From an uncultured Chlorobiaceae bacterium (GTDB lineage: Bacteria; Bacteroidota; Chlorobiia; Chlorobiales; Chlorobiaceae): a stretch of 45,982 nt of DNA. Below, piece by piece: positions 11,477 to 21,800 of the stretch (positions are counted from its first letter, which is position 1; every line of letters starts with the position of its first letter). The notes beneath the pieces were generated by a model, which did no database searches, was not told where the DNA came from, and saw nothing but the letters and a program-made list of their open reading frames with translations. Position numbers and translations under genes: made by a program. Location: contig CAISRC010000047.1 in the NCBI GenBank assembly GCA_903887845.1, positions 1-45,982 on the forward strand. Direction: 5' to 3'.

Positions 11477-11501
11477 GTAACGTTTGATCTTCTTACGTTA
11501 C
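11477..11501. promoter_or_regulatory. Perfect 7-bp inverted repeat, candidate operator
   Basis: GTAACGT at 11477-11483 is matched by ACGTTAC at 11495-11501 across an 11-base spacer, giving an 18-base centre-to-centre distance. That is typical of a site contacted by a dimeric helix-turn-helix protein on one face of the helix. It lies 30 bases upstream of the small Nif11-like gene. Confidence 0.4.
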
Positions 11502-11531
11502 AACATGCGAACAAATAAGGCGGGGTGGATT

Positions 11532-11774
11532 ATGTCACTTGATCATGCAAAAAAATCTCTCACCGAAAAGCTGAAATCTGACGAAGATTTTCGGGCGCGT
11601 GTAGCAAACTACATCCTTTACCACGGCTTTTCTGACGATTTGAAGAATATCAAGAAAGAAAATCTGACGCAACGCCATGACGAAAATGGATATTTCTCTT
11701 CTTTATCCACGCATAATGGTGATAAAAGTTACAATTCCGACAGCTTGCAGGGATATGAGTTTTGGGCTGGCTAA
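11532..11774 (+). CDS. Small Nif11-like protein (80 aa)
   Basis: The ATG at 11532 is chosen because GGGGTGG lies five bases upstream. Earlier starts lack such a site. The N-terminal part, MSLDHAKKSLTEKLKSDEDF followed by RARV and HGFSDDLKNIKKENL, resembles the Nif11 domain (a short helical unit ending in a GF/GY hydrophobic turn). Nif11 proteins occur near nitrogen fixation genes or as leader peptides of ribosomal natural products. The C-terminal 35 residues are Ser/Asn/Tyr-rich and end GYEFWAG. No double-Gly cleavage site and no modifying enzyme are visible nearby, so the leader-peptide idea is only suggestive. The gene is followed after 59 bases by another small gene. Confidence 0.5.
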   Translation: MSLDHAKKSLTEKLKSDEDFRARVANYILYHGFSDDLKNIKKENLTQRHDENGYFSSLSTHNGDKSYNSDSLQGYEFWAG

Positions 11775-11833
11775 ACGTTATTATTTCGACTAACTACATC
11801 TCTGCTGCGGGGATGCTTTATTTGGAGAACATT

Positions 11834-12055
11834 ATGAACAAAAAAATCTGGTTGACCTTAGGTATTGCAGGGATGCTTCTCGGTAGCCCCTCTGTTGATG
11901 CCCAGGCGAAAGTTGATGTTCGTGTTGGCATTAATCTGGGGAACAGCAGGACGCACCATTATCATCGCAAACATTGGAACAAGAGGAATTGGCACAGTGA
12001 CGCAAGAAAGCGGCACCACGATATCAAGCATCGGAAATCTGCATCGAGACGATAG
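11834..12055 (+). CDS. Small secreted His/Arg-rich protein (73 aa)
   Basis: Translation from ATG 11834 (GGAG seven bases upstream) gives a signal peptide MNKKIWLTLGIAGMLLGSPS, probably cut after VDAQA. The mature peptide is about 50 residues. Its second half is strongly basic, with clusters such as HHYHRKHW and KRHHDIKHRK, and it holds nine His plus many Arg and Lys. This composition suggests metal or polyanion binding in the periplasm, but no family is recognised. It lies downstream of the Nif11-like gene on the same strand and may share its transcript. Confidence 0.55.
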   Translation: MNKKIWLTLGIAGMLLGSPSVDAQAKVDVRVGINLGNSRTHHYHRKHWNKRNWHSDARKRHHDIKHRKSASRR

Positions 12056-12160: not shown

Positions 12161-15085
12161 ATGATCAAAAAGAAGCTTCAAAGTAATGCCCTCCTGCAGG
12201 CAGTTGAGCCCTCTTTCCCGATCGTTGGTATCGGTGCTTCAGCAGGAGGGCTTGAAGCACTTGAAATTTTGTTGAGAAATATTCCGGATAAATGTGGTGC
12301 CGCCTTTGTGATTGTTCAGCATCTTGACCCGACACACAAGGATATGATGGTTGAATTGCTTCAGCGGGTTACAGCTATGCCGGTCGTTCAGGTCTGCGAT
12401 CGCCTGAAAATTAAGCCGGATCATGTTTATGTGATTCCTCCGAACAAGAATATGTCTCTGCTGCACGGAATATTACATCTGCTTGATTCTGGAGAGCCTC
12501 GAGGTCTTCGTCTGCCCATTGATTTCTTTTTTCGCTCGCTTGCTGATGATCTGCATCAGCAAAGCATTGGTCTCATTCTTTCAGGCATGGGTTCCGATGG
12601 AACTCTTGGATTGCTTGCTATAAAAGAGAAAGGTGGCGGAATTTTTGTGCAGGATCCCTCATCAGCCAAATTTGACGGAATGCCTCGAAGCGCCATTGCT
12701 GCCTGTACGCCTGACATCATCGCACCTGTTGAAGAACTGCCGCGCAAACTCCTTGCCTATCTCGGGCATGTTCACTTTGTTGTAAAAAAGGATATTCCGT
12801 TGGCAGAAAAAGTACTGAGCGGTCTTGAGAAAGTGGTGATTCTTTTACGACTCCAGACGGGTCATGATTTTTCGCTTTATAAAAAAAGCACCATCTACCG
12901 CCGTATTGAACGACGCATGGGTATTCATCAGATTGAAAAAATTGCTGACTATGTCCATTTTCTGCAGGAAAACCCCCATGAAACTGATCTGCTGTTCAAG
13001 GAACTGCTGATAGGGGTTACGTGTTTTTTTCGCGATCCGGCAGTGTGGGAATCGTTGAAACTCAAGGGAATCCTGTCACTTCTGGCAGCCCGACCAGCCG
13101 GAGGTGCCATACGGGCCTGGGTGGTCGGCTGTTCTACGGGTGAGGAAGCCTTTTCCCTGGCAATCATATTCAAGGAGGCTATTGAAACACTCACACCTTC
13201 CGGAAATTTTAAACTGCAGATATTTGCAACAGACCTTGATAACGATGCTATCGACAAGGCCCGCTCAGGATGCTTTCCCCTGAAAATTGCAACTGAAGTT
13301 TCTGACGAAAGGCTGCGACGATTCTTTGAACTGGATGATCATGGCTACAGGATATCGCGCGAGATCCGTGAAATGGTAGTCTTTGCTCATCAGAATGTTA
13401 TCATGGATCCCCCTTTCTCCAAGCTTGATATTCTGGTTTGCCGGAATCTGCTGATTTATTTGGAGCCGGAGCTGCAGAAAAAGCTTTTTCCTCTTTTTCA
13501 TTACAGTCTGAATCCCGGAGGTATTCTTTTGTTGGGGAATGCCGAGAGTCTGGGTTCATTTACCCATCTGTTTAAGCCGCTTGACAGTAAAACACGACTT
13601 TTCAGTCGCCTTCAAGGGGTTCGTACGGAGTCCGCTGCTTTATCCTTTTCGTTTGCTCACACGCAACCCGCACTTTCGGATGTTACCGTCGATCAACCCA
13701 TGCCAAAAACTTCCGCACTCAATTTGCAGACCTTGACCGATCAGCTCCTCCTTGAATATTATACTCCTGCCGCAGTGCTGACCAATGATAAAGGCGATAT
13801 CATCTATATCAGTGGTCATACGGGTAAATATCTTGAGCCCGCAGCAGGAAAGGCCAATTGGAACATTTTTGCCATGGCGCGCGAAGGGCTTCGCTTTGAA
13901 CTGAGTATCATGTTCGGGAGTGTGCTCCGTCACAAAGGAACTGTTACCAAAAGAGGTCTGAATGTCATTGCGAGCGGAGTAACACAAACGTTTAATCTGT
14001 CGATTACGTTGCTTGAAAAACCTGATGCTTTGCAGGGACTCGTTTTGATTGTTTTTATTGATGTCGAAAGCCTTGCCTCTGCGACATTACAATATCCGGC
14101 CTCTTCTGCGGAGATTGGAAAAACCAGTCAGGAATTGCTTGAGCAGGAACTGAGTCAGGCAAGGGATGAGATTGTGTGTATCCGGGAAGAGATGCAGACT
14201 TCTCAGGAAGAGCTTAAATCCAACAATGAAGAGATACAGTCGACTAACGAAGAATTACAGAGCGCTAACGAGGAGCTGACCACCTCCAAGGAGGAGATGC
14301 AGTCCATGAATGAGGAACTGCAGACAGTGAACCACGAACTACAGTCGAAGGTGAGTGACTTGTCGCAGGCGAACAATGATTTAAAAAACCTGCTGAACAG
14401 TACTGACATTGCGACACTGTTTCTTGATGATGAACTCAACATTCGACGTTTCACCACAAGGACGGCATCCATTATAAAACTGATTGCCAGTGATGTAGGA
14501 CGTCCCATAACCGATATTGTGACCGATTTACAGTATCCTGCTTTGGCTGAAGATGCCAGTGAGGTTCGTCGTAGCCTGGTGTTTAGTGAAAAAGAGGTTC
14601 CGGCAAGTGACGGCCGCTGGTTTACGGTAAAAATTATGCCCTACCGTACCCATGAAAACCAGATTGACGGACTGGTGATCACCTTCAGCGATATTAGTGT
14701 CGCCAAAAAGCTTGAAGAGAGTCTTCGGGAAACTGAAAACCGTTTCCGGGCTGCAATTGAAAGTTCGGGTATCATCGTTGCGGCTGTTGACAAGGAGTTC
14801 CGCTATATCTGGCTTGACGATCCTCAGCATGAGTTTCATGCACCGGATTCGATTGGAAGACGGGATGATGAGCTTCCTGATATGCAGAACGCGGCTGAAC
14901 TTATGGAGGTCAAGCGAAAAGTGCTGGCGACAGGTGATACGGTACACCGGGATTTGACCGTAACAGTGGCAAACGGTTCTCTCCGCTACTATGAACTCAT
15001 TGCCAGGCCGCAGCGAAATGCAGGAGGTGAAATAATTGGCGTGATCACTGTTGCTGCCAGACAACACAGCCCGCAAAGAGGCTGA
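12161..15085 (+). CDS. CheB-CheR fusion with coiled coil and two PAS domains
   Basis: This 974-aa protein joins a CheB methylesterase domain (about 18-205) to a CheR methyltransferase domain (about 215-485). The esterase has catalytic Ser27 in GIGASAGG, His54 in VQHLDPTH and Asp146 in GMGSDGT. The methyltransferase has the SAM motif GCSTGEEA at 323-330 and VCRNLLIYL near 430. A long Glu/Gln/Asn-rich coiled coil (about 655-745) with repeats like EELQSANEEL follows, then two PAS domains (about 745-850 and 855-965). CheB and CheR remove or add methyl groups on chemoreceptor glutamates. There is no C-terminal kinase, unlike many larger fusions. No receptor, CheA or CheW is in the window, so the substrate is unknown. 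A PAS-winged-helix gene follows 124 bases downstream and may be a partner. Confidence 0.85.
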   Translation: MIKKKLQSNALLQAVEPSFPIVGIGASAGGLEALEILLRNIPDKCGAAFVIVQHLDPTHKDMMVELLQRVTAMPVVQVCDRLKIKPDHVYVIPPNKNMSLLHGILHLLDSGEPRGLRLPIDFFFRSLADDLHQQSIGLILSGMGSDGTLGLLAIKEKGGGIFVQDPSSAKFDGMPRSAIAACTPDIIAPVEELPRKLLAYLGHVHFVVKKDIPLAEKVLSGLEKVVILLRLQTGHDFSLYKKSTIYRRIERRMGIHQIEKIADYVHFLQENPHETDLLFKELLIGVTCFFRDPAVWESLKLKGILSLLAARPAGGAIRAWVVGCSTGEEAFSLAIIFKEAIETLTPSGNFKLQIFATDLDNDAIDKARSGCFPLKIATEVSDERLRRFFELDDHGYRISREIREMVVFAHQNVIMDPPFSKLDILVCRNLLIYLEPELQKKLFPLFHYSLNPGGILLLGNAESLGSFTHLFKPLDSKTRLFSRLQGVRTESAALSFSFAHTQPALSDVTVDQPMPKTSALNLQTLTDQLLLEYYTPAAVLTNDKGDIIYISGHTGKYLEPAAGKANWNIFAMAREGLRFELSIMFGSVLRHKGTVTKRGLNVIASGVTQTFNLSITLLEKPDALQGLVLIVFIDVESLASATLQYPASSAEIGKTSQELLEQELSQARDEIVCIREEMQTSQEELKSNNEEIQSTNEELQSANEELTTSKEEMQSMNEELQTVNHELQSKVSDLSQANNDLKNLLNSTDIATLFLDDELNIRRFTTRTASIIKLIASDVGRPITDIVTDLQYPALAEDASEVRRSLVFSEKEVPASDGRWFTVKIMPYRTHENQIDGLVITFSDISVAKKLEESLRETENRFRAAIESSGIIVAAVDKEFRYIWLDDPQHEFHAPDSIGRRDDELPDMQNAAELMEVKRKVLATGDTVHRDLTVTVANGSLRYYELIARPQRNAGGEIIGVITVAARQHSPQRG

Positions 15086-15209
15086 GAGTGCTTTGTCCCT
15101 TGATGCTCATGGAAAAATTAGTAAGGGAAATTGGCAAACGGAAAGTATTTTTTGTTTTTTATACGGACGTCTGAGTGTTATAAATCTGCAGAAATAAGAA
15201 AAGCGTTTC

Positions 15210-16190
15210 ATGACAAAGAACAGAGCCCTTTTGGAGGATTTAACCGCATTGCGCCATCAGGCAGAGACGCACCTCAACACAGAGCAGAAGAAAAAAGATA
15301 TTGATTTCTCCAGTTCGCCTGAGGAGATGCAGCGGGTTATTCATGAACTTGCGGTTCACCAGATTGAGCTTGAGATGCAGCAGGATGAACTGCTTCAGAC
15401 AAGGGCTGAGCTGGAAGAAAGTCTGGAATGCTACACTGATCTTTATGACTTTGCGCCGCTCGGCTATCTGACGCTTACCAGGGAGGGGACGATACGGCAA
15501 GTCAATCTGACAGCGACAAAACTGCTTGGTATAGAACGATCCCTGCTGATAGGCGATCGTTTCGGAAGGTTTGTTTCCCCTGAAGGTCTTCCTGCTTTTA
15601 ACGATCTGCTGGCGAGGGTGTTCAGCAAGAGAGAGCACCCATTCTGTGAGGTTATGCTCCTGATTGAAGGAAAGCCTTCCTCTTCTGATACTATGGTATC
15701 TCATGATACCCCTGTTGTACTCATCCATACCGTTCGCATTGATGCAATCCTCAGCAATGACGCTCTGGAATGTCGTGTCGTTGTATCGGACATCAGTATG
15801 CAAAAAAAATTCGAACAGGAGAATACTGTCCTTAAAGCCCGATTAGCTCAAATAGGCATATCAGAGCCAATCGACAAGCCAGTCGGCAGTGCTACTCCCG
15901 ACTTTAACCACCAACTGCTCAATAAAGTTATTCATGCAAGGATACGGTTTGCAGCACTTTCATTTCTTTATTTTGTCAATAAGGCAAGTTTTTTGGAGAT
16001 CAAAAAGCAGGTCAGGACAACGGACGGTAATTTAAGTGTTCACATGCGGATGCTTGAGTCTGCCGAGTATATAAGTTGTGACAGGGAAATTCAGGATCGC
16101 AAGCCTCAAACTATTTACAGCATTACGCCGAAAGGCCATGATGCCTTTTTCAGGTACAAGGCTTCTCTCAGAGCTTTTCTCGGGGCATAA
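15210..16190 (+). CDS. PAS domain protein with C-terminal winged-helix (HTH_34-like)
   Basis: The 326-aa protein starts with a helical segment (HELAVHQIELEMQQDELLQT, about 45-65) of the kind that precedes PAS domains in signalling proteins. A PAS domain follows at about 75-200 (FAPLGYLTLTREGTIRQVN). The last 95 residues resemble a MarR-like winged helix, with FLEIKKQVRTTDGNLSVHMR as the recognition region and a wing ending in YSITPKGHDAFF. It could therefore be a one-component transcription regulator in which PAS senses a signal and the winged helix binds DNA. This pairing is uncommon, since HTH_34 units usually occur alone. It lies downstream of the CheB-CheR-PAS gene on the same strand. Confidence 0.7.
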   Translation: MTKNRALLEDLTALRHQAETHLNTEQKKKDIDFSSSPEEMQRVIHELAVHQIELEMQQDELLQTRAELEESLECYTDLYDFAPLGYLTLTREGTIRQVNLTATKLLGIERSLLIGDRFGRFVSPEGLPAFNDLLARVFSKREHPFCEVMLLIEGKPSSSDTMVSHDTPVVLIHTVRIDAILSNDALECRVVVSDISMQKKFEQENTVLKARLAQIGISEPIDKPVGSATPDFNHQLLNKVIHARIRFAALSFLYFVNKASFLEIKKQVRTTDGNLSVHMRMLESAEYISCDREIQDRKPQTIYSITPKGHDAFFRYKASLRAFLGA

Positions 16191-16247
16191 TCCGCCCTTA
16201 TTACCAAAGACCATTTTAACAAACACGAAAAAAAGGAGAACGTGTAT

Positions 16248-16709
16248 ATGCCTGGTCAGGGACTATTCAACGAGATGAAAAGGACGTTTCTGTTTCATGC
16301 CGTTGCTGCACATTTCAGCAACGGTCTGATCCCGGTTGCCGTGCTGTACTTGATCTTGACACTTTCAACCGCCAACAACTATTTCGAGCATACCGTTGAA
16401 CATCTTCTTCTCATTGTCGTCCTGGCTGTTCCGGCCTCCTTTTTTTCTGGTATCCACGATTGGAAAACAAAATATCGTGGTGCCAAAGCGCCAGTCTTTA
16501 TAAAAAAAATCAGACTCTCCTGCCTGCTTTTTACACTCTGTGTTTCTGCTGTTTTTATCAGACTCAGCTCTCCAGATGTGATGAACAACAAAGGTATTGA
16601 GCACTGGCTCTATCTTGCTCTACTTTTTTCCATGCTGCCGGTCGTGACGCTTCTCGGTCATTACGGTGGAAAGCTTTCCGCCCAAAAACCGCTGGCCAAA
16701 TCGGTCTGA
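16248..16709 (+). CDS. Small integral membrane protein, possibly DUF2231-like
   Basis: Starting at ATG 16248 (AGGAG nine bases upstream, better than the GTG at 16242) the product is 153 aa with four hydrophobic segments near residues 23-42, 50-68, 90-107 and 120-138. His residues lie at or near segment ends (FHAVAAHFSNG, FEHTVEHLL, GIEHW, LLGHYGG), an arrangement seen in DUF2231-like and some b-type cytochrome membrane proteins. Haem binding is a guess. It follows the PAS-winged-helix gene by 57 bases and may be its target or partner. Confidence 0.5.
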   Translation: MPGQGLFNEMKRTFLFHAVAAHFSNGLIPVAVLYLILTLSTANNYFEHTVEHLLLIVVLAVPASFFSGIHDWKTKYRGAKAPVFIKKIRLSCLLFTLCVSAVFIRLSSPDVMNNKGIEHWLYLALLFSMLPVVTLLGHYGGKLSAQKPLAKSV

Positions 16710-16825
16710 CTCATACCCTGACGGCATGTACATCTTGAACAGTTCTTGTCTGCAGCGAGCAGCACATGCAACTTGATACTCGTCTGCAGAGGGGATATTG
16801 AAATGGAGTTCGAACGATGCCTCTC

Positions 16826-17734
16826 TCAGGAGAGCTTCGCCGTCAGAGCCGGAACAAACTGCAGCACATCGGCGACAACAAGAACATCGGCTACTTCGCC
16901 GATAGGGGCATTCTTGTCTTTATTGATGGCCAGAATAAACCCTGACTTCTTCATTCCGGCAAGGTGCTGGATAGAACCTGAAATACCGCAAGCCACATAG
17001 AGCTTTGGGGTAACAGTCTGGCCGGTAGAACCAACCTGATGACCATGATCGATCCAGCCGGCATCGACCACGGGACGGCTCGCCCCAAGCTCGCCGCCAA
17101 AAGCCTTTGCGAGACTGCGGACCACCTCGATATTCTCTTTTTTCCCGATCCCGCGTCCGGCGCTGACAACAATCTCGGCTTTTGCCAGATTGACATCCCT
17201 GGCTTCGGCGGGCTCGTAACCCATAAATTCAGTGGTCGACGCTGCGTCAGTCGAGAGAACCTTCACTGAAGGGCTACCTTCCGCCTGAAGGGCCGGAAAG
17301 GCTCCTGCCTGAATGGTGATGACCGCTTTCGATGTCGAAGGAGTGACGTTACGATGCATTTTTGCATTGCAGCATCCCACCTCATAGGCGTTACCGGCAA
17401 AACCGATCACCTCTGAGACCTGCGCCAGCTTGAGGCTTGCGGCAACGCGGGGGGCAAGATCCCAGCCGTAGGAGGAGTGGACAAATACGACAAGATCAGG
17501 GTTTTCCTCCTGAACGGCCTTTAACAACAGTTGTTTATGTACTTCAGGGTTGTATTCGCCGTAAACCTTCGCATCGGCCAGATAGAGTGAGCCGCTGAAT
17601 GCCGGAACAGCTTCAGCGCTCCCGACAAGAAACAGGGAGGCCTCTCCGCCGATTGCTGCTGCAAAACCCAGGAGTTCTGCGGTGGTATCGAGAAGTCTGC
17701 CTTCCCTGTATTCGCCAACAAGTAATAGCTTCAT
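16826..17734 (-). CDS. etfA: Electron transfer flavoprotein alpha subunit
   Basis: The 302-aa protein has the conserved FAD-binding C-terminal domain, with SAGRGIGKKENIE near 200, PVVDAGWIDHGHQVGSTGQT near 232 and GISGSIQHLAGM then INKDKNAPIGEVADV toward the end. EtfA and EtfB form a soluble heterodimer that takes electrons from acyl-CoA dehydrogenases and passes them to a membrane quinone reductase. The gene starts 12 bases after etfB with a GAGGAG ribosome binding site. It is the last gene of the acyl-CoA oxidation cluster. Its tail faces the convergent membrane-protein gene with no clear terminator between. Confidence 0.95.
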   Translation of the reverse strand: MKLLLVGEYREGRLLDTTAELLGFAAAIGGEASLFLVGSAEAVPAFSGSLYLADAKVYGEYNPEVHKQLLLKAVQEENPDLVVFVHSSYGWDLAPRVAASLKLAQVSEVIGFAGNAYEVGCCNAKMHRNVTPSTSKAVITIQAGAFPALQAEGSPSVKVLSTDAASTTEFMGYEPAEARDVNLAKAEIVVSAGRGIGKKENIEVVRSLAKAFGGELGASRPVVDAGWIDHGHQVGSTGQTVTPKLYVACGISGSIQHLAGMKKSGFILAINKDKNAPIGEVADVLVVADVLQFVPALTAKLS

Positions 17735-17746
17735 TTATGTGTCTCC

Positions 17747-18523
17747 TCAGCGCAGAACCGCCGTTTTATCTTTTAGAATGACAAGCACCTTTTCGACCAG
17801 TTCATCGACACTCCCTTCAAGCACAACGCCACTGCCCCGCTTTTCCGGATGGCGAAAGGCTGCTGAACCAGTAAGCGGCTTCTCTGAGGAGAGTTCTCCT
17901 GCCTGAAGCATGGTAATCTCTTTTTTCCTGGCCTTCATGATGTTCGGAAGGGTGGGATAGCGCGGAGAGTTGAGTCCAAGCTGGCAGGTCACGAGCGCAG
18001 GGGTCTTCAGTCTGACCTTGCTTTTCACTCCCCCTTCAAGCTCCCGCGTTGCCGTCACCACGCCGTCGGCCCAGGCGAATCCAACCAGAGTCGTTGTCGA
18101 AGGGATGCCCAACAGCTCGGCAACAAGAACTCCAACCTGTGCTGAACCACGATCCTGCGACTGCATGCCGGTGAAGAGAAGATCAAACTGCTTGTCGCGG
18201 GCATAAGCCGCAATAATTGAGGCAATCTGCCAGGGCTCTCTGGATGCGACCTCCGGCTCAAGGATGTGAACAGCACGGTCGCATCCTATGGCGAGCGCCT
18301 TTTTGATGGCCTCGATGACCCGGTCGGGTCCGATTGAGAGTACCGTGATTTCGGGCTCGCCACCAAGCTGCTCCTTCAGCCTGACCGCCTCCTCCACCGC
18401 ATATTCATCGTATTCATTCATCCGAAACGCAAGGTCCGACTCATCGAACCAGGTGGCGGATCCATTGGGCCTGAAATGTGACTCCATGTCAGGAACCTGC
18501 TTAATGCAGACAAGTATCTTCAT
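17747..18523 (-). CDS. etfB: Electron transfer flavoprotein beta subunit
   Basis: The 258-aa protein opens MKILVCIKQVPDMESHFRP, the standard EtfB start. It has the nucleotide-binding region FTGMQSQDRGSAQVGVLVAE near 122 and the LELEGG-type loop as ATRELEGGVKSK. EtfB binds AMP or a second FAD depending on the ETF class. Which class applies is not certain here, but association with a membrane quinone reductase favours a non-bifurcating electron carrier. The gene lacks a strong ribosome binding site. A 125-base gap separates it from the upstream quinone reductase gene, and that gap holds a predicted promoter, so etfBA may be expressed both with the cluster and alone. Confidence 0.95.
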   Translation of the reverse strand: MKILVCIKQVPDMESHFRPNGSATWFDESDLAFRMNEYDEYAVEEAVRLKEQLGGEPEITVLSIGPDRVIEAIKKALAIGCDRAVHILEPEVASREPWQIASIIAAYARDKQFDLLFTGMQSQDRGSAQVGVLVAELLGIPSTTTLVGFAWADGVVTATRELEGGVKSKVRLKTPALVTCQLGLNSPRYPTLPNIMKARKKEITMLQAGELSSEKPLTGSAAFRHPEKRGSGVVLEGSVDELVEKVLVILKDKTAVLR

Positions 18524-18528
18524 GATTG

Positions 18529-18541
18529 TTTACGTTTACGT
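18529..18541. promoter_or_regulatory. TTTACGTTTACGT motif upstream of etfB, candidate MerR operator
   Basis: TTTACG is repeated directly twice, followed by T, just upstream of the etfB start codon and downstream of its predicted -10 box. The heptamer TTTACGT is shared with the palindrome TTTACGTAAA in the icmF promoter. The position in the 5' leader would fit repression. The link to the MerR protein is an inference. Confidence 0.4.
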
Positions 18542-18562
18542 GCATGTCAATTAACAATACAA

Positions 18563-18591
18563 ATTCTACGAAAATGAATTGTATGATGCAA
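18563..18591 (-). promoter_or_regulatory. Predicted sigma-70-type promoter for etfBA
   Basis: On the minus strand TTGCAT (-35, 18591-18586) is followed by a 17-base spacer and TAGAAT (-10, 18568-18563). The start codon lies about 40 bases beyond the -10. This is within the only sizeable gap inside the cluster. Confidence 0.45.
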
Positions 18592-18648
18592 TACCTTGCT
18601 GTAAAATAAATTGCCAAAATGCCCGGAAAAGCTGCTTTAAACCGCCTG

Positions 18649-20634
18649 TTATTGTACTATTCGCTCAGCAACAATCTCAGCCAGATCGCGAACCTTCAGC
18701 TTGCCCTCAAATCCACCGGTCTTGATGCCATCTTCAAACATCGTCAGGCAGAAGGGGCAGTTTGAGGCGAGGATCGGCATACCGGTCTCGCTGGCCATGG
18801 TGACTCTCTTCACGTTGATGCGACTGCCGAGCTTCTCCTCGGCAAAGATCCTGCCGCCGCCGGCACTGCAGCAGAAGCTGTCGTACCCTGAGCGGCTCAT
18901 CTCGGTGAGCTTGCCGCCAGCCGACTTCAGAACAGCGCGAGGCTCTTCGAAAATGTCCTTGTACCGGCCGAGATAGCAGGAGTCGTGATAGGTGAACTCG
19001 AACGGCTCCGGCTTAAGCTTCAGCCGCTTCTCCACGATCAGCCTGTTGATGAAGGTGCTGTAGTGCTCGACCGGAACATCAAACTTGAGATCCCGGTAAT
19101 CACGACTGAGCGTATTGAAGCAGTGGGGGCAGGTGGTCACGATGCGCTTGACCTTGTAACCCTTGATGGTCTCAATATTCTCCGCAGCCACCATCTGGTA
19201 GAGGTACTCGTTGCCAAGCTTCCTCACCGGCTCGCCGCAGCACTTCTCCTCCTTGCCAAGGATGCCAACCTTCACACCGGCAGCCGCACAGATACGCAGG
19301 AAGTTTGCGGCAACATCACGGTTGCGTCTGTCGAACGACGCATAGCAACCGGCGAAATAGAGAATATCGACATCACTGTTCTCCTGCATGATGCTGACCG
19401 GGAGCCCCTTCGCCCAATCTCCCCTCGAAGCGTAGGCCATACCAAACGGATTGCCGTTCACCTCGATGTTGTTCGTGGCGGTGCGAACCTCGTCACCCGG
19501 GAATTCGCCCTCCATCAGGGTCAGGTTCCGGCGCATTTCGAGGATCTTGTTGACGTGCTCGATATTGGCCGGGCAGATGTCCTGGCAGGCGCCACAGGTC
19601 GTGCAGGACCAGAGCGCATCAGCCGTCACCGCCTCAAGCAGACCTTTTTTGGGTGACGTTTCGGCAACACTGCCTATCGTCTTGATCACCTTCATCGGAG
19701 AGAGCGGCTTGTCGGTGCTGTATGCCGGGCAGCGATCCTGGCATCGCTTGCATGAGGTACAGGCATCGCTGTCAAAGAGGTCTTTCCAGGTCAGGTCGGT
19801 GATTTTCGAGGCACCGAACTGTTCAATGCTCTCATCTTCAAGATTGATGGTGCCGATCGTCCCTTTCGGTTCAAAGGGGGCAAGGAAACTGTTCCCGCTC
19901 GTCGTCAGGATATGACGCAGCTTTGTCCGGGGAATAACTGAAATAAAGCCAAGCCCAAGGAGAAGATGGAACCACCAGAGCCCCTTGTGCAGGCCAGAGA
20001 GGGCACCGTCGCCAAGAGAGGAGAGCGCCTGGGCAAAGACGTAGCCGACAGGAGACCACAAGGCGAGAGCAGGGTTCTGCTTCAGCTCGGTAACGGCCAT
20101 GCGACTCCCCTCAATGAGAAAGCCGGTGATCAAAATGGTGAAGAGCAGGGCGTGAATACGGTAGTCGTCGGTGACCGTTTCGAGCCCCTTCGGCTTGATG
20201 AAGAATCGGCGCACAAAGAGTCCGCCGAGCATCACGATGGCGACCAGACCGGCAACGTCAAGCACAAGGGAAAAGTACCTGTAGAAGTTCCCTTGCAGTA
20301 TGTTAACCTTGAAGAGCGGCATGAGGAGATCGGCCTGCACCATAATGAGCATCGTGCCCGCAAGCAGGGTGAGGAAGCCCCAGAAAAAGAGCGAATGGAA
20401 CAACCCTCCATCCTTGACCCTGGAGACGCGGGTCTGGCCGAAGACGGTCGCGAGCATACGCTGTACGCGGTCGCCGCGCCGGTCAAAACGATCCAGAGAC
20501 TTCCCCTGACGCCAAATCTCCAGCCTCTCTTTGAAGCCGAAGGCCGCGCCGGTTACTGCCGCGATGGTGAGCAGGTACATGACGGCAACGACCCCGTGGC
20601 CGACGTTCCAGTATATTTCACGAGTTGCATCCAT
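18649..20634 (-). CDS. Membrane-bound ETF:quinone oxidoreductase, FeS/CCG type (EMO-like)
   Basis: This 661-aa protein has an N-terminal membrane domain of about six helices (10-235) related to the haem b-binding nitrate reductase gamma subunit. Two ferredoxin-type 4Fe-4S sites follow (Cys292/295/298/302 and Cys344/347/350/354). Two CCG (DUF224) domains come next, with CCGEPVRK near 465 and FCCSAGGGR near 590, which in heterodisulfide reductase-type proteins hold noncubane clusters. Proteins of this build in fatty-acid-oxidising anaerobes pass electrons from EtfAB to menaquinone. It sits between the acyl-CoA dehydrogenase (26-base gap) and etfBA, exactly as expected for that role. The haem ligands are probably His in the membrane helices (for example His161 and His223), but I cannot assign them firmly. 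Confidence 0.85.
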   Translation of the reverse strand: MDATREIYWNVGHGVVAVMYLLTIAAVTGAAFGFKERLEIWRQGKSLDRFDRRGDRVQRMLATVFGQTRVSRVKDGGLFHSLFFWGFLTLLAGTMLIMVQADLLMPLFKVNILQGNFYRYFSLVLDVAGLVAIVMLGGLFVRRFFIKPKGLETVTDDYRIHALLFTILITGFLIEGSRMAVTELKQNPALALWSPVGYVFAQALSSLGDGALSGLHKGLWWFHLLLGLGFISVIPRTKLRHILTTSGNSFLAPFEPKGTIGTINLEDESIEQFGASKITDLTWKDLFDSDACTSCKRCQDRCPAYSTDKPLSPMKVIKTIGSVAETSPKKGLLEAVTADALWSCTTCGACQDICPANIEHVNKILEMRRNLTLMEGEFPGDEVRTATNNIEVNGNPFGMAYASRGDWAKGLPVSIMQENSDVDILYFAGCYASFDRRNRDVAANFLRICAAAGVKVGILGKEEKCCGEPVRKLGNEYLYQMVAAENIETIKGYKVKRIVTTCPHCFNTLSRDYRDLKFDVPVEHYSTFINRLIVEKRLKLKPEPFEFTYHDSCYLGRYKDIFEEPRAVLKSAGGKLTEMSRSGYDSFCCSAGGGRIFAEEKLGSRINVKRVTMASETGMPILASNCPFCLTMFEDGIKTGGFEGKLKVRDLAEIVAERIVQ

Positions 20635-20660
20635 TGGTAGCCTCGACTTCAGTCATCAGG

Positions 20661-21800
20661 TTAAGAAAGCAGTTGTTTGGCAATGACGATGCGCTGCACC
20701 TCACTCGTCCCTTCATAGATCTCGGTGATCTTGGCGTCGCGGTACATGCGCTCGATTTCGTAGTCTGCAATGTAGCCGTAACCACCATGAATCTGCATGG
20801 CCTCTTTGGTTACGAACGTAGCGGTCTCCGATGCGTGGAGCTTGCAGAGAGCAGACTCGAGGGAGAATTTTTTCTTGTGGTCTTTGAGCCAGGCAGCCTT
20901 GTAGATCAGCAGCTTGCTTGTCTCAATACGAGCATACATATCGGCCAGCTTGAACTGAATGGCCTGGAACGCGCTGATGGTCTGACCAAACTGCTTGCGC
21001 TCCTTTGCATAGGCGACGGAACGTTCAAAGGCACCTTCGGCGATACCGAGAGCCTGCGAGGCAATACCGATACGACCGCCATCGAGAGTATCCATGGCAA
21101 CATTGAACCCCTTGCCCTCCTGTCCGAGCAGGTTCTTGAGCGGCACGCGCACGTTGTCGAGCGCAAAGGCGGTGGTGTAGCTGCCGCGAATGCCCATCTT
21201 GTTTTCGTTTTTCAGGATAATGACACCCGGCGACTGCAGGTCGACGATAAAAGCTGTTATCCCTTTATGCTTCAGACTGCGGTCGAACGAGGCAAGCACG
21301 ATGCCTGTGCCGAGATATCCGCCGTTGGTGATGAAGTTCTTGGCTCCGTTGATAACGACCTCATCGCCTTCGATGCGGTAGGTCGTGGCCGTTCCACCTG
21401 CATCGCTGCCGGCATCAGGCTCGGTGAGGAGGAAGCAGCCGATCTTTTGACCGGTGAGAAGGTCAGGCAGCCACTGCTGCTTCTGCTCTTCGGTACCGTA
21501 GGCGTAGATGGGGTTGCAGCAGAGTGATGTATGGGCCGAAACAAGAACGCCGGTCGATGCACAGGCTTTGGAAATCTCTTCGACCAGAATGGCGTAGGAC
21601 ATCATGTCGAGGCCTGCGCCGCCGTACTCTTCGGGAAAGTAGCTGCCGAGGAACCCCATCTCTGAAATATGTTCGACAAGCTCATCGGGAATCCTGTGCT
21701 CTTCGTCGATTTTGGCTGCTATCGGCTTGATCTCGTTTGCAACGAAGTCGCGCACTGCGGACTGCAGCACTTTCTGGTCGTGAGTCAGTTCAAAATTCAT
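20661..21800 (-). CDS. Short-chain (butyryl-CoA-type) acyl-CoA dehydrogenase
   Basis: The 379-aa flavoprotein has the family signatures LTEPDAGSDAGG in the middle domain and IHGGYGYIADYEIERMYRDA near the end. The catalytic base is Glu363 in IYEGTSEVQR, the position used in short- and medium-chain enzymes rather than the isovaleryl type. It would oxidise butyryl-CoA to crotonyl-CoA and pass electrons to EtfAB. Neighbouring thiolase, hydroxyacyl-CoA dehydrogenase and crotonase genes favour a C4 substrate. The length is normal. A GGAG site precedes the ATG. It lies 14 bases downstream of the crotonase gene, so the two are almost certainly cotranscribed. Confidence 0.92.
   Translation of the reverse strand: MNFELTHDQKVLQSAVRDFVANEIKPIAAKIDEEHRIPDELVEHISEMGFLGSYFPEEYGGAGLDMMSYAILVEEISKACASTGVLVSAHTSLCCNPIYAYGTEEQKQQWLPDLLTGQKIGCFLLTEPDAGSDAGGTATTYRIEGDEVVINGAKNFITNGGYLGTGIVLASFDRSLKHKGITAFIVDLQSPGVIILKNENKMGIRGSYTTAFALDNVRVPLKNLLGQEGKGFNVAMDTLDGGRIGIASQALGIAEGAFERSVAYAKERKQFGQTISAFQAIQFKLADMYARIETSKLLIYKAAWLKDHKKKFSLESALCKLHASETATFVTKEAMQIHGGYGYIADYEIERMYRDAKITEIYEGTSEVQRIVIAKQLLS

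Follow-up and report, generated by a model that had tools for sequence, protein, structure and literature searches.

A CheB-CheR-PAS fusion and its kinase-derived winged-helix partner in Chlorobiaceae: a conserved pair outside chemotaxis with a candidate methyl-accepting coil

The stretch of DNA analyzed here, hereafter the window, comprises 45,982 nucleotides (nt) of contig CAISRC010000047.1 (assembly GCA_903887845.1) of an uncultured Chlorobiaceae bacterium, whose genome, labelled G000, is a 2.65 Mb draft with 98.8% completeness. It carries on the forward strand three consecutive open reading frames (ORFs), confirmed at 12161-15085 (974 amino acids, aa), 15210-16190 (326 aa), and 16242-16709 (155 aa). 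The first encodes a fusion of CheB and CheR with PAS domains (CheBR), the second a protein that joins PAS to a winged helix-turn-helix (PAS-wHTH), and the third a membrane protein; the original prediction regarded the set as a possible methylation-linked transcription switch rather than a chemotaxis system. The first two genes form a genuine pair that is conserved and non-chemotactic; its evolutionary story is well supported, and the mechanism proposed for it is testable and unproven.

CheBR has the domain order CheB-CheR-(PAS-like)-coil-PAS_10-PAS_4. Pfam places the CheB methylesterase domain at aa 22-197 (12224-12751; CheB_methylest, E-value 2e-56), the CheR methyltransferase domain at aa 222-478 (12824-13594; CheR_N, 7e-17, and CheR, 2e-47, the latter at aa 286-478), and the two PAS domains at aa 741-845 (14381-14695; PAS_10, 6e-33) and aa 867-965 (14759-15055; PAS_4, 6e-13). 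Regarding the active sites, S27, H54, and D146, which we take to be the CheB catalytic triad, lie within blocks aligned to solved CheB structures, and in the 115-sequence CheBR alignment used for catalytic and coil conservation they are present in 115, 115, and 113 proteins, respectively; in the CheR half, which was also compared with PDB structures, G327, E329, D358, R428, N429, and Y433 are each found in 115 of 115. Neither CheBR nor PAS-wHTH has a kinase domain by Pfam (no HisKA or HATPase match); as had been predicted, CheBR is, by its sequence, a CheB-CheR-PAS hybrid that holds CheB, CheR, PAS, and intact active-site residues in one chain and lacks a kinase. In its AlphaFold model (predicted template modelling score, pTM, 0.47), aa 656-747 (14126-14401) form a single long helix that runs into PAS_10, with a predicted local distance difference test score (pLDDT) of about 80-93 over most of its length; given this pTM, the arrangement of the domains was not read beyond that helix.

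The core of the helix, aa 683-726 (14207-14338), surpasses the rest of the CheBR alignment in conservation: columns at least 95% constant make up 59% of the coil core, versus 16% of CheB, 21% of CheR, and 17% of PAS_10. It consists of Glu-Glu pairs spaced every seven residues; in the heptad register inferred from N at a and L/M at d, the pairs occupy the outer positions b (100%) and c (99.5%), and the core positions a and d are 98% and 84% constant. Conservation of the coil in the 80-locus set described below is inflated, because one of the two peptide patterns used for retrieval lay within it; in the 39 sequences that came from the whole-protein search alone, b and c were constant at 100% and d at 88%. 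That the outer residues vary no more than the core suggests a constraint of some kind beyond packing.

Six or more consecutive acidic pairs at seven-residue spacing occur in 113 of the 115 proteins; 4000 shuffled coils gave at most three in a row (39 times). The motif [EQ][EQ]xx[AST][AST], presumably the methylation consensus of methyl-accepting chemotaxis proteins (MCPs), reaches 6.70 per 100 aa within the coil, versus 0.05 elsewhere; in a control, it fell within the hairpin of 12 of 13 recognized MCPs, after 7 of 20 loci without an ORF recognized by the tip motif had been left out. As for its distribution, a DNA pattern of five Glu pairs at heptad spacing was searched in 121 genomes: by the search table, every one of the 48 fusion-bearing family genomes was positive, as were 4 of the 25 that lack the fusion, each of these four through an Ala/Pro repeat; plain Glu repeats (G012:C15) match it as well. 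Among 152 ORFs with the pattern, a number that takes in loci which the pattern itself had retrieved and counts some genes more than once where loci overlap, 143 have a CheB or CheR motif, and the other nine are four CheBR pieces, four Ala/Pro repeats, and the locus L234. Within the family genomes, the Glu-Glu array marks the CheB-CheR fusion, and the coil is a candidate for a methyl-accepting helix acted on in cis.

PAS-wHTH ends in a winged helix of the HTH_34 family (aa 245-323, 15942-16178; E-value 5e-29, 100.8 bits versus a cut-off of 27), whose nearest solved structure by sequence is PH1061 (1ub9, E-value 1e-6). Its PAS region falls just under the curated cut-offs (PAS_8, 19.5 of 21.8 bits; TIGR00229, 22.0 of 22.9 bits), and the structure model (pLDDT 74, pTM 0.44) has a PAS-like fold matching PAS structures and the element order of a winged helix. 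The uncommon joining of PAS to HTH_34 noted in the original prediction is borne out, its PAS half being sub-threshold and backed by the modeled fold; PAS-wHTH is an HTH_34-domain protein, and binding to DNA is predicted for it. A ligand was also sought by fold search and this was given up: the model resembles many PAS structures at 10-19% identity, and therefore no cofactor can be inferred. At the N-terminus, a highly conserved helix (aa 36-72, 15315-15425) is common to the partners of CheBR elsewhere.

Between the PAS region and the winged helix, aa 200-232 (15807-15905) correspond to the H-box of histidine kinases. When 25 PAS-wHTHs were compared with 11 PAS kinases, identity persisted beyond PAS through the H-box, at 33-36% in register, and a shift of 1-5 columns lowered it to 3-13%; 10 of the 11 kinases have the acceptor His, versus 1 of the 25 PAS-wHTHs (one is gapped there), and the window protein has Pro at this position. 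The alignment demonstrates, as far as sequence comparison can, that PAS-wHTH descends from a histidine kinase; the exact kinase/HTH junction is uncertain, because the end of the H-box match reaches the start of HTH_34.

PAS-wHTH, scored by matches extending into the HTH, has at least 26 copies, spread over 22 of the 65 genus genomes, among the matches listed (G031 holds an additional broken copy), and the surroundings of 25 copies were read. CheBR lies directly upstream on the same strand in 18 of these, so the pair is not scattered in relatives; 12 of the 18 pairs overlap by 4 nt, given the ORF starts used. In G008:C75 the two genes are 418 nt apart, and in G062 they are separated by a PAS-only gene. 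In six relatives (G009, G019, G029, G031, G041, and G042), CheBR is preceded by a longer, PAS-kinase-like protein with the same PAS module, and the two examined (G019 and G042) have HATPase by Pfam. The genome of the window has such PAS kinases elsewhere (G000:C129 and C136), so the absence of the kinase at the window locus is a derived state. The kinase upstream of CheBR in G042 (L076:9252-10571) has Asp at the expected phospho-acceptor His, so the kinase may be in the course of being lost in that genome as well.

Partners outside the family were read from 80 named loci of bacteria and archaea, the best 80 of 591 confirmed stretches, of which 77 lie outside Chlorobiaceae and, since two end too early, 75 are testable. 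An ORF was scored as a partner if it matched PAS-wHTH at E <= 1e-5 and started within -200 to +600 nt; split genes (L165 and L209) were not mended, and L209 was scored as partnerless. An ORF with the PAS-wHTH N-terminal module was found in 61 of the 75 testable loci, between -157 and +231 nt relative to the CheBR stop, and 21 of these 61 pairs have the 4-nt overlap. Pfam on the 61 partners, some of them clipped at the locus ends, gave HATPase in 26, HisKA in 17, response regulator in 10, HisKA_3 in 9, GGDEF in 8, EAL in 6, and sigma-54 activator and GerE (LuxR-type regulator) in 2 each. Because of these counts and varied outputs, CheBR appears to be usually paired with a PAS front end of changing output; the output is a winged helix in the window, and the transcription link of the original prediction is plausible to this extent. 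Four of the five distant CheBR chains scanned (G114, G074, G110, and G101; not G102) continue into HisKA and HATPase. In three Bacteroidales loci (L148, L152, and L163), the partner has about 183 aa and a match to the PAS module only, with no room for an output domain.

The prediction had reported no chemoreceptor or CheA nearby, and a search of the draft genome of the window extends this, with 0 MCP (PF00015) and 0 CheW-domain (PF01584) matches; identical searches were positive in 7 of 14 named control genomes. In 121 genomes, all 30 MCP positives were outside Chlorobiaceae and none among the 73 family genomes, in agreement with the view that the locus does not serve chemotaxis. CheW-domain matches were absent from 44 of the 45 genus genomes searched; the remaining one, G040 (82% complete, 520 contigs), gave four, and its contig C220 combines CheW matches with a divergent CheB-CheR match containing two stops, and no MCP, which would reflect contamination or a relic. 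Strong CheBR matches (E <= 6e-299), some clipped at contig ends, were obtained from 47 of the 65 genus genomes and from one of the eight sister-genus genomes (in another, G066, the match has only the length of CheB). The enzymes CheR and CheB are thus kept where no receptors were found, because CheBR is present in 48 of the 73 family genomes and MCPs in none.

The reading preferred for these data, to which a probability of about 0.48 is given, is that of an MCP-independent sensing pair, in which CheBR would be methylated in cis on its coil and would relay its state to a DNA-binding partner. CheBR would be a sensor with adaptation enzymes built in, its PAS domains responding to some cue; its CheR half would methylate, and its CheB half demethylate, the glutamates of the Glu-Glu heptad coil of the same protein, and the level of coil methylation would set or store the signaling state. 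This state would then be passed by contact to the product of the next gene, via the shared N-terminal helix and PAS module. The partner is a former histidine kinase whose catalytic core after the H-box was swapped for a winged helix; because of this replacement, its output is expected to be DNA binding rather than phosphorylation.

Several points weigh against this reading. No partner was detected in 14 of the 75 testable loci by the criteria used, and in Chlorobiaceae 7 of the 25 PAS-wHTH copies lack an adjacent CheBR (G003, G007, G015, G027, G053, one of two in G030, and one in G048); in G003, which is 99% complete, PAS-wHTH is present and there is no CheBR match at all. The window CheBR is without the third PAS of its relatives and without the 4-nt overlap to PAS-wHTH. 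In the coil, five of the 39 sequences from the whole-protein search are below 50% identity and their d position is 100% constant too, so that with a at 98% the constancy of the outer face, taken alone, would also fit a structural or docking role. The CheBR model, at its pTM, leaves undecided whether CheR can reach the coil. L234, in G094, a genome outside the family, is a PAS histidine kinase without CheB or CheR that has five Glu-Glu heptads. Finally, a search for 7-base dyads in 103 upstream stretches of neighboring genes from 24 loci revealed no shared operator, the best dyad arm occurring in 3 loci versus at most 2 in five shuffles.

In a rival reading, CheR and CheB would act in trans, on the partner through its N-terminal helix or on a PAS kinase encoded elsewhere, the coil serving only to hold the complex; this is regarded as rather doubtful. 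RsbM, which we take to be a CheR-type methyltransferase, acts on RsbK in trans, and the N-terminal helix of the partner is strongly conserved; the genome of the window has a PAS kinase with the same module (L101), and in G094, where L234 is a possible trans substrate, the CheR and CheB matches are in separate frames. Against it stands the long and regular Glu-Glu array within CheBR itself, which tracks the fusion in the family genomes. It is also unlikely, to a similar degree, that the coil is a plain signaling helix or a docking surface for the partner helix, with methylation occurring elsewhere or absent. In the inferred register, Asn at a, which is 98% constant, and Leu or Met at d suggest a parallel dimeric coil, and the frequency of conserved-helix partners outside the family agrees with docking; docking alone accounts neither for the retention of the catalytic residues of both enzymes in genomes without detected MCPs nor for the exact EExx[ST] repetition.

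As for the history of the window copy, most close relatives have a CheBR of about 1130 aa with a third PAS, and the frame of the window CheBR, like that of its G028 counterpart (95% identical), ends at 974 aa. At the end of the window CheBR, another frame still encodes residues that continue in the relatives (15060-15119, an out-of-frame relic of the region preceding their third PAS), and this domain was, to judge from the reading frames, lost through a frameshift. Remnants of CheBR were also found: in G028 a short one directly follows the PAS kinase, and in G000 one lies where a short contig begins. The old kinase-CheBR site thus appears to have decayed, with the moved pair surviving. The shortened protein, the relic, and these remnants would suit a window copy that is itself decaying, its operon split, its third PAS shifted out of frame, its kinase elsewhere, and the pair no longer working. 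This is improbable: 974 codons are open, with 95% identity to G028, and the ratios of nonsynonymous to synonymous substitution rates (dN/dS) between the two are 0.13 for CheBR and 0.22 for PAS-wHTH, which indicates that both genes are under purifying selection. The synonymous values (dS) of the same comparison are 0.16 and 0.11, respectively, versus 0.22-0.43 for five downstream genes (12161-16190 against 16245-21800), which would suit a separate recent history of the pair.

The membrane gene (16242-16709) has only a sub-threshold Pfam match to DUF2231 and lies outside the unit. It was found in 58 of the 73 family genomes, and in the 16 that have both genes it is adjacent to PAS-wHTH in 2; in the other 14 it is on a different contig or 256 kb away. 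It lies near etf genes without the pair in G018 and G013, and elsewhere in G019, so the pair seems to occupy a new place in the lineage of the window. The three-gene switch of the original prediction, which the adjacency of all three in the window and G028 had favored, is contradicted by these gene orders and can be set aside as very improbable, and with it the membrane protein as a partner.

Upstream of CheBR, neighbor comparison identified two small ORFs on the forward strand. The first (11484-11774, probable ATG at 11532) belongs to cluster c4, whose members also adjoin PAS-wHTH in six relatives read, and gave no Pfam match over the cut-off; the second (11762-12055, cluster c40) resembles a small secreted protein, with an N-terminus similar to that of c3 proteins. 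At least one of the clusters c3, c5, c6, c9, c12 (OmpA), c13, c14 (similar to outer membrane proteins), and c26 is near 13 of the 25 PAS-wHTH copies. The c3 proteins look secreted, and one of the two scanned has a WXXGXW match; c5 is small with weak sigma-70 similarity, and c6 is a coiled small protein; a glycosyltransferase also recurs near PAS-wHTH (L076, L087-L090, L093, and others). That these recurring neighbors might be regulated by PAS-wHTH is a lead only.

CheB-CheR fusions occur in many bacterial groups and in archaea; for the action of CheR and CheB in organisms without chemoreceptors, the conserved Glu array provides a concrete candidate target in cis. A broader proposal, advanced tentatively as a possibility, is that CheB-CheR-PAS proteins are self-contained methyl-accepting sensors, with writer, eraser, and Glu array in one chain, that drive a partner of interchangeable output; in Chlorobiaceae this partner would be a kinase rebuilt into a transcription factor, wiring methylation memory to promoters. 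The Chlorobiaceae pair shows a kinase partner rebuilt as a predicted DNA-binding partner with the gene order kept and, if the proposal is true, adaptation chemistry has been turned into a transcription switch. Searches of the open-access literature, which leaves subscription papers largely outside, gave no description of in-cis methylation of a CheB-CheR fusion; likewise, the parts covered of an archaeal survey (PMC5847659) and of a Methanosarcina study (PMC11784639) contain no CheB-CheR fusion.

Compared with the adaptation of MCPs by CheR and CheB, the CheBR system has the same pair of enzymes and a glutamate-pair motif on a coiled region, whereas no receptor or CheW/CheA was found in the genome of the window, and the density of the motif in the CheBR coil far exceeds that of the MCP hairpins examined (0.80 per 100 aa). 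In Bacillus cereus, RsbM is reported to methylate the S-helix of RsbK and thereby to control a non-chemotaxis output (PMC4574943), an experimental precedent; as proposed for CheBR, a methyltransferase is combined there with the signaling helix of a non-MCP sensor. RsbM is a separate enzyme acting in trans on a kinase and, per the authors, without a cognate methylesterase (PMC4574943), whereas CheBR has methyltransferase, methylesterase, and Glu-Glu helix in one chain and the bearer of the helix is not a histidine kinase. CheR fusions with tetratricopeptide repeats are reported to lie mostly within chemosensory gene clusters of alternative function (PMC3447774), a setting in which they differ from the window CheBR. 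Unlike PAS histidine kinases, the window PAS-wHTH has neither a HATPase match nor the phospho-acceptor His; its winged helix matches that of PH1061, and it differs from regulators of this type in that its HTH_34 follows a PAS module and a relic H-box in one chain encoded beside CheBR. Sensor kinases of Azospirillum are reported to have a CheB methylesterase and a methyltransferase domain among their sensing domains (PMC4618731). Finally, the CheB-CheR-PAS hybrids share domain order and coil with the window CheBR, and forms fused to HisKA/HATPase exist in related phyla or orders; the window differs from them in having no kinase in cis, a winged helix behind a kinase relic as the output of its partner, and a CheBR that has lost its third PAS.

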